DNA from: Flavobacteriales bacterium
GTDB lineage: Bacteria > Bacteroidota > Bacteroidia > Flavobacteriales_D > Parvicellaceae
Direction: 5' to 3'
Assembly (NCBI GenBank): GCA_024635865.1
Contig: JAGXIB010000117.1
Span: 1-40,730, forward strand
Length of the DNA stretch: 40,730 nt
The notes under the pieces were generated by a model, which did no database searches, was not told the origin of the DNA, and saw only the letters and a list, made by a program, of their open reading frames with translations. Shown here in pieces: positions 8,037 through 11,040 of this stretch. Position 1 is the first letter of the stretch; each line of letters opens with the position of its first letter. The position numbers were made by a program, and so were the translations under genes.

Positions 8037-8480
8037 ATGAAAAACTTAATTTGTTTATTACTCCCTATTTCAATCTTAACCTCTAGTAGCACTTTAGCGC
8101 AAGTTGATATAACAGTTGAACCTTGTTTACGGGCTAAAGATGCGATTTCAAAAGAAGAAAGATTTAGTAAAAACTATAAAAGAAAAAAAGAAGACTTTGT
8201 CGAAAGAAATGAAATTACCGAAAAACAGTTAAAAAAATGTAAAGTAGAAACTGAGATTATAGATAAATAAACTGAAATCAAAGCTGAAAAGGACACCTAC
8301 ATACTAAAGTATTATGAAAAAATTGAATACAGCCCTGCTACACATGAATCTAAGAAAACTGAGGTTTTCTAATTAGAAAATACAACCACTAAAAAGGTTT
8401 ATGCTTTTAAGTCTGGTACTGTCAGCAATAAATATGACAAATATTTAGAAAAGGTTATTAAAGAGATTAATGAACATTAA
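8037..8480 (+). pseudogene. Small exported-protein gene interrupted by two in-frame TAA codons
   Basis: ATG 8037 opens a frame with a clear signal peptide (KNLICLLLPISILTSSSTLAQ) and runs 77 codons to TAA at 8268-8270. The same frame then continues for 33 sense codons (TEIKAEKDTYILKYYEKIEY onward) to a second TAA at 8370-8372, and for 35 more (LENTTTKKVYAFKSGTVSNK onward) to a final TAA at 8478-8480. All three parts have the same Lys/Glu-rich, Tyr-containing composition, and no frameshift is needed. A strong terminator follows 20 bases later. The simplest reading is a recently inactivated gene for a secreted protein of about 147 residues. The first 77 residues could still be made. Family not recognised. 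Confidence 0.65.
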
Positions 8481-8500
8481 AAAATTAATACAAATTTTAA

Positions 8501-8536
8501 AAAGGCCATTCTTAATAATTAAGAATGGCCTTTTTT
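8501..8536 (+). terminator. Rho-independent terminator after the broken small gene
   Basis: GGCCATTCTTAAT (8504-8516) and ATTAAGAATGGCC (8518-8530) form a perfect 13-base arm pair around one base, flanked by A-run and six T (8531-8536). It ends transcription of the 8037-8480 gene, and that an intact terminator remains supports a once-working gene there. Confidence 0.9.
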
Positions 8537-8560: not shown

Positions 8561-8617
8561 AGTTCTCGATACAATTTTCTTACGCAAAAGCTTCAGAAAA
8601 CCACTTGAACGGACTAG
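8561..8617 (+). repeat. Palindromic repeat, copy A
   Basis: Begins AGTTCTCGATACAATTTT, ends CACTTGAACGGACTAG, with the centre TTACGCAAAAGCTT. The ends form an imperfect inverted repeat (CGATACAATTTT against AAAACCACTTGAAC). It is nearly identical to copy C. The 357-base gap 8481-8837 holds copies A-C and a terminator and no ORF I can support. Confidence 0.8.
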
Positions 8618-8660
8618 AAACATTTCATTATCTAAAATACAAAACCAAAAAAATCAAATG

Positions 8661-8727
8661 CTAGTCACTTCGAGTGAATAAATGCGGAAATTGTTGCTAA
8701 ACTATTTTTGTATCGATTTGTATCGAG
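8661..8727 (-). repeat. Palindromic repeat, copy B (inverted, different centre)
   Basis: On the minus strand it starts TCTCGATACAAA and ends TTCACTCGAAGTGACTAG, sharing the ends of copies A, C and D but in the opposite orientation and with an unrelated, longer centre in which CGATACAAA occurs twice. It lies between copies A and C. Confidence 0.7.
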
Positions 8728-8741
8728 ATGGAATACGGGGC

Positions 8742-8797
8742 TCTTTTCGATACAATTTTATTACGCAAAAGCTTAAGAAAAACACTCGAACGGACTA
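8742..8797 (+). repeat. Palindromic repeat, copy C
   Basis: Differs from copy A at only a few positions, including the identical centre TTACGCAAAAGCTT and end GAACGGACTA. It lies 40 bases upstream of the GIY-YIG gene. Confidence 0.8.
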
Positions 8798-8837
8798 AGA
8801 ATAGTTTATCTTTAGTAGATAAATAAAACTCCCCACA

Positions 8838-9131
8838 ATGAAGTATTTTTATGTTTACATTCTATTATGTTCCGACAAGACCTTTTATACTGGCTTTACA
8901 TCAAACCTTGACAAAAGAATACAAGAACATAATGATGGGAAACATAAAAATAGCTACACTTATTCCAGAAGACCATTAAGTTTAGAGTTCTTTGCAGAAT
9001 TCTCTACCGTTCAACAAGCTATTTCGTTTGAAAAGCAAATAAAAAGCTGGTCTCAAAAAAAGAAAATTGCTTTAATAAATGAAGAGTTTGATCGTTTACC
9101 AAATCTAGCAAAAAAGCAGTTTAAAAGTTGA
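8838..9131 (+). CDS. GIY-YIG nuclease family protein flanked by palindromic repeats
   Basis: A 97-residue single-domain protein of the UvrC/SLX1-type GIY-YIG fold. The first strand YVYIL is at residues 5-9, the second YTG at 17-19, the conserved arginine in LDKRIQEHN is near 27, and the metal-binding glutamate is in FEKQIKSW (Glu65). All catalytic positions look intact. There is no DNA-targeting domain. It stands alone, with palindromic repeats close on both sides (A, B, C before; D, E after), an arrangement reminiscent of RAYT transposase genes surrounded by REP palindromes. A TATCTTTA box at 8807-8814 may be its -7 element. Role in moving or trimming the repeats is inference. Confidence 0.88.
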   Translation: MKYFYVYILLCSDKTFYTGFTSNLDKRIQEHNDGKHKNSYTYSRRPLSLEFFAEFSTVQQAISFEKQIKSWSQKKKIALINEEFDRLPNLAKKQFKS

Positions 9132-9140
9132 ATTTCGTAG

Positions 9141-9198
9141 CTGTTCTCGATACAATTTTCATCCGTTATCACTCCTTAAAATCACTCGAACTGACTCA
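9141..9198 (+). repeat. Palindromic repeat, copy D
   Basis: Starts GTTCTCGATACAATTTTC and ends AAAATCACTCGAACTGACT, starting 10 bases after the GIY-YIG stop codon. Its outer arms match copies A and C, but its centre differs (ATCCGTTATCACTCC). The ATTTT/AAAAT and TCGA-containing arms can pair. Confidence 0.75.
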
Positions 9199-9223
9199 GA
9201 GTATTATACAATAATTACTTGTG

Positions 9224-9243
9224 CTAGTCAATTCGAGTGAATA
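9224..9243 (-). repeat. Palindromic repeat, partial copy E
   Basis: On the minus strand it reads TTCACTCGAATTGACTAG, the right end of copy B with one change; the CGATACAA end is absent. It lies between copy D and the promoter of the phosphatase gene. Confidence 0.55.
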
Positions 9244-9297: not shown

Positions 9298-11040
9298 ATG
9301 AGTGAAACTAAATTAAATATTGACGAAGAAATAAGCAAAGCTTGGGATACTCGATTAATAGATTTAAAGCTGGCTTTTAATTTAGGTTTATCGTTGAAAG
9401 AAAAATCTGAGCAAATTAACTCTGAGAAAGGGCTGGCTGGCGCAAATAAAATTCTTGGTTATTGTTACTGGCGATTCTCAGACTACACCACCTCCTTAAA
9501 ACACTCTTTACTAGCTCTTGACGCCTACAAGTCTTTTGGAGATAAAAGAGGAGAAGCTGATGCTCTCAATAGTATAGGGGCCGTTTATATGTTTCAGGGT
9601 GAAAATAAAAAAAGATTACAATGTAATTTAGATTGTTTAGCTATTCGAGAAGAAATTGGTGATTTAGAAGCTGTTTCAGGATCTCAAAATAACATTGGAG
9701 AAACTTATTTAGAGCTTTCAGATTTTAAAAATGCAACGTTATGGTTTGAAAAGTGTTTAAATAACCCTCATTCTGGAAAAACCAATGTTGCTTGGGTTAA
9801 CTTTAACTTAGGAAAAACAAAAGTTCTGCAAGGCTATCAAGAAGAGGCTATTTCATTTTTTGAAAAAGCATTAACTATTTGCTTATCTATTAACTACGAA
9901 ATACTAATCTCAGAAACTTATTTAGAATTAGGAAATATATTCCTTTCAATTGCGGAACTTGAAAAGGCCAAAGATTCTGCTGAAAAAGGAAAGTTTTCGG
10001 CACAAAGTATTGGAGCAAAAGAAAACATAGAAAAATCATATTTATTGCTATCTAAAATCTACGAAAAAGAAGGTTTTACAGGTGAAGCACTCGACTATTT
10101 TAAAAAATACCATGCTGCACACTCAGATTTATTCAATGAAGAAAAAGAACAACAGATTAAAGATATAAATTATCAATACGAGTTGAATAAAATAAGTAAA
10201 GAAGCAGAAATAGAACGCCTAAAATCTATAGAACTAAAAAGTGCGTATGAAAAGATTGAAACTCAAAATCATTTAATTGAAATAAAAAACAAAGAATTTA
10301 TAGAAAGTGTTACATACGCCAAAGAGATACAATTTGCAGTATTGAATGAGCGTAAAATAATTAAGAAAAATAACTTTGAATCTTTTTTGTTTTACAAACC
10401 AAAAGATATTGTTGGAGGAGACTTTTATTGGTCCGCTAGCTTCAACGACTACACCTATATTCTCGTTGCAGACTGCACAGGTCATGGCGTGCCAGGAGGG
10501 TTCCTAACAATGTTGGGTATTGCTTATTTAAATGAGTTAATTACAGAAGTTAACATAAAGACTCCTAATGAAATTCTAGATGAACTAAGAATAAAAATCA
10601 TTAAAGATCTATCTGGGAAATTTAGTAGTAGAGATGGTATGGACATTTCAGTTGTTAGAATTGAAAATGCAACTAAAAAAATTGAATGGGCTGGAGCTAA
10701 AAATCCATTATGGATAATTAGAAAAAACGCTACTGAAATAGAGGTTGTTCCTGCAAACAGACAATCAATTTGTTATGCTGAAAATTTAACTCCATTTATT
10801 AATCATGAAATACAACTAGCTAAAGGAGACATGATTTATTTATTTACAGATGGTTTTTCTGACCAATTTGGAGGCCCTAGAGGTAAAAAAGTAGGACGCA
10901 AAAATTTCAGAAATATTCTTTTAGAATGTAGAGACAAAACGATACCAGAGCAAAAAGAAACGATAAAAAGAACCTATACTGAATGGAGAGGTTCTTTAGA
11001 ACAAATAGATGACATCTGTATTATAGGCATACGTCTATAG
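9298..11040 (+). CDS. TPR-repeat SpoIIE-type protein phosphatase
   Basis: A 580-residue soluble signalling protein. Residues about 25-290 are tetratricopeptide repeats (for example GEADALNSIGAVYMFQGENK, NNIGETYLELSDFKNA). Residues about 290-345 are a Lys/Glu-rich coiled coil, and residues about 350-580 are a PP2C/SpoIIE serine phosphatase. The metal-binding motifs are intact: GGDFYW from residue 373, DCTGHGVPGG from 392, and DGFSDQFGG near the end. Such proteins usually dephosphorylate anti-sigma-factor antagonists or act in two-component networks; no partner is encoded next door. There is no signal peptide or membrane segment. Its stop codon touches the stop codon of the convergent ctlX gene with no spacer. 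Confidence 0.92.
   Translation: MSETKLNIDEEISKAWDTRLIDLKLAFNLGLSLKEKSEQINSEKGLAGANKILGYCYWRFSDYTTSLKHSLLALDAYKSFGDKRGEADALNSIGAVYMFQGENKKRLQCNLDCLAIREEIGDLEAVSGSQNNIGETYLELSDFKNATLWFEKCLNNPHSGKTNVAWVNFNLGKTKVLQGYQEEAISFFEKALTICLSINYEILISETYLELGNIFLSIAELEKAKDSAEKGKFSAQSIGAKENIEKSYLLLSKIYEKEGFTGEALDYFKKYHAAHSDLFNEEKEQQIKDINYQYELNKISKEAEIERLKSIELKSAYEKIETQNHLIEIKNKEFIESVTYAKEIQFAVLNERKIIKKNNFESFLFYKPKDIVGGDFYWSASFNDYTYILVADCTGHGVPGGFLTMLGIAYLNELITEVNIKTPNEILDELRIKIIKDLSGKFSSRDGMDISVVRIENATKKIEWAGAKNPLWIIRKNATEIEVVPANRQSICYAENLTPFINHEIQLAKGDMIYLFTDGFSDQFGGPRGKKVGRKNFRNILLECRDKTIPEQKETIKRTYTEWRGSLEQIDDICIIGIRL

Follow-up and report, generated by a model that had tools for sequence, protein, structure and literature searches.

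What is a small, stand-alone GIY-YIG nuclease gene doing in the midst of a cluster of palindromic repeats? The question is raised by a 40,730-nucleotide stretch of a Flavobacteriales bacterium (hereafter the window, meaning the whole stretch that was analysed), in which a preliminary description had noted four palindromes and a part-copy around such a gene. This arrangement is confirmed here. The gene (8838..9131, + strand) encodes an intact COG2827/UPF0213-like protein of 97 aa (Pfam PF01541, E 1.3e-17). Ahead of it lie repeat copy E1 (8562..8615, + strand, GTTCTCGATAC...CACTTGAACGGACT, with a degenerate 3' end), copy E2 (8664..8729, - strand, ATCTCGATAC...CACTCGAAGTGAC), which is inverted to E1 and forms a head-to-head pair with it across a 48-nt spacer, and copy E3 (8743..8796, + strand, TTTTCGATAC...CACTCGAACGGACT), which is 85% identical to E1 over 66 nt and is followed 41 bp on by the start codon. 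Behind it, copy E4 (9143..9196, + strand, GTTCTCGATAC...CACTCGAACTGACT, both ends canonical) begins 11 bp past the stop codon and makes a second head-to-head pair, with a 29-nt spacer, with the inverted part-copy E5 (9226..9243, - strand), which consists of the tag end only (AGTCAATTCGAGTGAATA on the + strand). The 3' end motif CACTCGAASTGAC, with up to two mismatches, has five matches in the 40.7-kb window (0.60 expected), a number reached by no shuffle, and all five are at the GIY-YIG locus, so that the earlier statement that the window holds no further copies stands. The exact two-ended pattern matches once in the window and not at all in 100 shuffles; the short 5' end by itself, with two mismatches, is not above chance (15 matches, 12.7 expected).

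The palindromes are real, with one correction to how they were first seen: folded as single-stranded DNA, the window copies are mediocre hairpins (z = -0.6, -2.9, -2.1, +1.1). They are partly decayed and fold weakly, and the palindrome is convincing from a family of 381 elements, discussed below, rather than from these copies, which have no Rfam match at the gathering cut-off. The surroundings of the locus include a perfect 18-bp inverted repeat with a T-run just ahead of E1 (8499-8535), likely a terminator; a frame upstream of the repeats (8037-8483), probably a pseudogene, that begins like a signal peptide and contains two TAA stops in frame; and an adjoining gene for a protein with TPR and SpoIIE phosphatase domains (9298-11040), one of a large family with 53 matches in the genome.

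In an alignment of 29 homologous sequences, residues Y7, Y17, R27, H31 and E65 are invariant, and these match the usual GIY-YIG active site. The AlphaFold2 model of the window protein has a GIY-YIG fold (pLDDT 89.8), the best PDB matches to this model in Foldseek are 1zg2 (UPF0213) and Slx1, and 1zg2 is also the closest PDB sequence (E 7.5e-13). The GIY-YIG fold hydrolyses, its chemistry being that of cleavage, and we know of no GIY-YIG enzyme that performs transposition. The genome has three GIY-YIG domains, namely the window gene, one in a 611-aa frame that is probably UvrC, and one in a 470-aa frame. At two homologous loci (L028 and L030), GIY-YIG frames of 375 and 247 aa end in long, repetitive C-terminal extensions, as though the reading frame had taken in repeats. 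A homing intron or intein was rejected, as the gene is free-standing between intergenic repeats, and so was viral carriage, the 24 viral contigs concerned having only distant relatives (36-47% identity).

The gathering of repeats at the gene extends well beyond this locus. A search of genome contigs yielded 80 homologous loci, mostly of Flavobacteriaceae, and in 72 of these a repeat with the same ends lies within 1 kb of the gene, bearing out the expectation that copies cluster there. Repeat density falls from 6.39 per kb within 250 bp of the gene to 2.06 at 250-500 bp, 0.63 at 500-1000 bp, 0.11 at 1-2 kb and 0.05 at 2-5 kb. The other eight loci have different palindromes on both sides (for example, GTCAGTTCGAGCGGAGTCGAGAAC at L095, TGTCACACTGAGCCTGTCGAAGTG at L122 and TGTCATGGTGAGCCCCGCCGAACCATGAC at L113), and around more distant Bacteroidota homologues the palindromes are mostly of further kinds, again on both sides. 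Similarly, 12-mers common to the upstream and downstream 400-bp flanks occur at 74 of 78 loci versus 24 of 422 control windows. Four loci with KYLKSGSG-type or tRNA-linked homologues (L038-L040 and L044) showed no clear repeats, and therefore the rule is not valid for every GIY-YIG gene. A distinct small GIY-YIG group (L038, L039, L042, L044) adjoins tRNA-like sequence, mostly without clear tagged palindromes.

The consensus of the 381 elements near genes is 5'-GTCA-STTC-GAG-TG-[variable stem-loop]-GTAT-CGA-GAAS-3' (S = G or C). At the outer S positions, 340 of the 381 have a compensated pair (G/C or C/G), and the inner stem is 85% paired versus 53% when arms are shuffled between elements. As read from the sequence, GAG opposite CGA would give two G·A mismatches closed by G:C, a putative tandem G·A motif. 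A stem-agnostic motif (GTC..w-GAG-N-CGA-w'), which requires a GTC tag, a 4-bp stem of whatever sequence and GAG...CGA, and nothing else, has 383 matches within 500 bp of the genes (46 short and 337 long) and 59 beyond 1 kb (19 short and 40 long) in several-fold more sequence, and eight scrambled cores of it yield 0-3 matches each. The common architecture is a GTC tag, a freely covarying stem and GAG...CGA, followed by a loop or a second stem. Both the examined elements and the window copies have (A/T/C)GTCA as their tag, with AGTC in the best window copies; relatives have TGTC, and L021, near the window's clade, combines a window-type core with CGTC. Pairing is selected while the stem sequence is free, and therefore a folded single strand (DNA or RNA) is the likely functional form; we consider it likely, with good confidence, that the folded single strand of the repeat is also the substrate.

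In the genome of this bacterium (3.1 Mb, about 91% complete, in 232 contigs), the exact two-ended pattern has 13 matches, one in the window and 12 elsewhere, and the reversed control pattern has none. Most of the dispersed copies differ in stem sequence from the copies at the gene, and are therefore not recent daughters of those. With relaxed Rfam cut-offs, Flavo-1 (RF01705) appeared, with 21 matches in this genome. Judged by eye, the terminal loop of Flavo-1 holds a clear type A repeat in about nine of the 21 places, in both orientations (L234, L240-L242, L244-L246, L248, L250), and a decayed type A repeat in about seven more, while two have short loops (L235, L236). Hairpin loops may be landing sites for repeats. 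Flavo-1 matches have been described as indistinctly sense or antisense to transcripts (PMC9723704), and other tagged REPs are nested in palindromes, including some tagged dimers of the CGTC class, like the type A repeats in Flavo-1 (PMC3733652).

Gene and repeat also co-occur across genomes. The two-ended pattern has 901 copies in the 249 genomes of the family of Seonamhaeicola aphaedonensis (G100); of the 51 genomes that possess a close gene (E <= 1e-30), 49 contain one copy or more and 44 contain two or more, versus 11 of 55 and 6 of 55, respectively, among genomes without any homologue. For at least two copies, the odds ratio between close-gene genomes and all others is 21 (p = 6e-17, relatedness being ignored in this p value). 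The repeats are thus neither equally dense without the gene nor, given the 12 copies elsewhere in this genome, confined to the locus. The expectation that genomes lacking the gene also lack the repeats holds for most of them, but some keep many copies without a close gene (45 in G361, 36 in G287 and 43 in G002, a member of the window's own genus); the gene is therefore not needed to retain the repeats, which outlive it. Many of the copies in G002 (L158-L162), whose assembly has no close GIY-YIG gene, form tandem arrays with a spacing of about 150-210 bp. In G215 the gene sits between direct ~150-bp units, and its relative G361 keeps the repeats there with another small gene instead. At L164 (2047-2469), a 140-aa gene stands between repeats where a related genome (L169) has the GIY-YIG gene; it may be a further passenger of the array.

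A host-wide repeat or a hot spot is opposed most strongly by the comparison of paralogues. In all nine genomes examined that have two to four paralogues, every gene has a repeat type of its own beside it (in G290 A, C, B and a second C; A, C and B in G240; A, B, with one additional A, and C in G258), and in Flavobacterium profundi type B occurs at one paralogue and type A at the other. Such paralogue-specific types exclude a host-wide repeat hot spot. Repeat type also follows protein clade: on the protein tree, which has few columns and many open forks, it needs 10 changes versus a shuffled mean of 19.7, and 0 of 200 shuffles are as low. Types C and D overlap by the loose regex (L034, L081), making their labels less sure than A, B and F, and the label A of L041 rests on a single weak match.

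The repeat-gene-repeat unit carries signatures of mobility, as the preliminary description had thought possible. The suf operon of Azospirillum lipoferum contains a [REP dimer-GIY-REP dimer] block, inserted between sufB and sufC; in A. ramasamyi, A. oryzae, Azospirillum sp. B510 and A. argentinense, sufB and sufC lack the block, and the flanks in these relatives are 95-96% identical. At the osmC-recJ site of Maribacter, three species have repeat-gene-repeat, two of them with the repeats in opposite orientation; two further species have a solo repeat there, another has nothing, and in two more an unrelated gene occupies the site. Gene and repeats are therefore gained or lost together, as a cassette, and a solo repeat can stay behind. 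As comparisons of sequence, these presences and absences would fit transposition, homologous recombination or transfer alike.

We interpret the locus as a REP-like nuclease/repeat element, consisting of a stand-alone GIY-YIG nuclease and the hairpin repeats that it recognizes, and put the probability that it works as proposed here at about two in three. That nuclease and repeat form a cognate pair is well supported, and we regard it as nearly certain; that the nuclease drives dispersal is plausible, in our view at even or slightly better odds. One strand of the repeat would become single-stranded, as lagging strand at the fork or in the course of transformation or conjugation, and would fold into the GTC tag, the covarying outer stem, the tandem G·A mismatches and the loop or second stem. 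The nuclease would then read tag and mismatch and cut the folded strand at or near the tag, recognition and single-strand cutting both being putative. Repair or copying of the cut hairpins would spread solo repeats and build head-to-head pairs and tandem arrays, and might in the same way move or delete the repeat-gene-repeat cassette. Weighing against this proposal are the hydrolytic nature of the fold, the many repeats kept by several genomes without the gene, the different stems of most dispersed copies in this genome, and the partial decay of the window hairpins.

Alternatively, the nuclease may act as a gatekeeper only, cutting repeat-bearing single-stranded DNA in natural transformation or conjugation, with the repeats shaping uptake and recombination and spreading by ordinary recombination and horizontal transfer rather than by the nuclease. 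Cutting of this kind is reportedly known from the Neisseria nuclease Ssn, and CGTC repeats form a dense array around the N. gonorrhoeae homologue. The persistence of repeats in genomes without the gene and the hydrolytic chemistry of the fold are also in keeping with such a role, and recombination could produce tandem arrays and the direct repeats seen around genes. This account by itself, however, leaves unexplained the cassettes inserted in operons, the private repeat type of each paralogue and the copies nested in Flavo-1 loops in both orientations, and we consider it unlikely, if worth serious attention.

Considerably less credible is that the repeats are host elements, such as bidirectional terminators or mRNA-stabilizing hairpins, that occupy intergenic gaps and are unrelated to the nuclease. 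The copies are indeed intergenic, AT-rich hairpins, several of them near gene ends, but 1-3 kb away from the nuclease gene their density is already about 100-fold lower, control windows are almost without flank-to-flank repeats, and genomes without the gene are mostly without repeats, all of which largely refutes this reading. A still poorer candidate, largely refuted as well, is that the CTCGATAC...CACTCGAAC repeats are REPs of the ordinary sort, mobilized by a RAYT or other IS200/IS605 transposase, with the GIY-YIG gene as a bystander in a repeat-rich spot: the layout is RAYT-like and the genome has one Y1 transposase-like gene, but for that gene a 3.3-kb stretch contains a single end-motif match and neither border has a repeat, no Y1 transposase was found in six of 12 repeat-bearing genomes (G361 with its 45 copies included), and a bystander gene would not give one repeat type per paralogue. 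RAYTs are not needed for these repeats.

The tag, covarying stem and GAG/CGA amount to a structural code from which substrates can be predicted, the homologues form a large natural set of candidate sequence-specific single-strand cutters, and matched enzyme/repeat pairs from one genome make the question directly testable in vitro. The enzyme of CGTC-tagged REPs, a widespread bacterial class, was left open by a 2013 survey, according to which they 'apparently lack a dedicated transposase' (Di Nocera et al. 2013, PMC3733652), and our data tie such repeats to a specific nuclease gene. Tentatively, and at somewhat less than even odds, small COG2827-type GIY-YIG nucleases might supply the dedicated enzyme that is missing for xGTC-tagged REPs as a class, across phyla. 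Each nuclease would mobilize its own tagged hairpins and the gene cassette between them, and a hydrolytic nuclease fold would then run a life cycle like that of REP transposons, in parallel to the RAYTs.

Among known systems, the UPF0213/COG2827 proteins of PDB 1zg2 and 1ywl share sequence and predicted fold with the window protein, but these structures have no assigned function or repeat. The RAYT/REP/REPIN systems (PMC2817692, PMC3116915) resemble the kind described here in the short tagged palindromes on either side of the gene, in the copies dispersed elsewhere, in the head-to-head pairs and arrays, and in cassettes that come and go. They differ in enzyme, the RAYT being a Y1 HUH tyrosine transposase (PF01797) and the window enzyme a GIY-YIG protein (PF01541), and in tag, GTAG versus GTC. 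The original comparison of the locus to RAYT/REP with a nuclease of another fold is thus supported by the clustering, the co-occurrence, the paralogue types and the empty sites.

The CGTC-tagged REPs (PMC3733652), like the window type, have an xGTC tag at one end; they are mostly head-to-head dimers and are reported from Bacteroidetes too. Their tag is an unpaired terminal CGTC (or TGTC or CCTC), to be compared with the AGTC, TGTC and CGTC given above for the window copies, relatives and L021, respectively. They have an 8-9 bp stem starting with AT, a 4-5 nt loop and a CCA tail, whereas the window type has a 4-bp outer stem (STTC), a GAG/CGA internal mismatch, a variable second stem and no CCA tail. 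Outside Bacteroidota, in plasmid-collection records of which some are apparently chromosomes filed as plasmids, homologues sit among CGTC- or TGTC-tagged palindromes in N. gonorrhoeae (CGTCATTCCCGCGCAGGCGGGAAT), Azospirillum lipoferum (CGTCATCCCCGCGAAGGCGGGGAT) and Sinorhizobium meliloti (CGTCATCCTCGGGCTTGACCCGAGGAT), as well as in Rhizobium, Aeromonas and the cyanobacterium Planktothrix (TGTCATTCTGAGTGAAACGAAGAAT). The repeats that flank the proteobacterial GIY-YIG genes, Neisseria included, have the form of CGTC-tagged REPs, and in Neisseria the latter have been equated with dRS3 (PMC3733652).

The window protein is of the same superfamily as the Neisseria candidate but appears to belong to another clade, the candidate falling in a set apart on a protein tree of 96 columns, the deep branching of which is poorly resolved. 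The small GIY-YIG gene of N. gonorrhoeae among CGTC repeats is probably its ssn. Ssn is said to be a family of site-specific single-stranded nucleases of the GIY-YIG superfamily, associated with NTS repeats in Neisseria and reportedly presented by Chenal et al. in Nat Commun in 2025. Its members are small stand-alone GIY-YIG proteins with a matching repeat near the gene and dispersed in the genome, and reportedly cut single-stranded but not double-stranded DNA at specific sequences. The window protein, with its catalytic residues intact, is likewise small and stand-alone and has such a repeat; the window repeat is a longer, two-part hairpin with a GAG/CGA mismatch and not a perfect 8-9 bp stem. 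To our knowledge, evidence for a mobile cassette is not part of the Ssn work. Ssn is probably the closest known kind, and the kind found in the window is widespread and probably represented by Ssn already.
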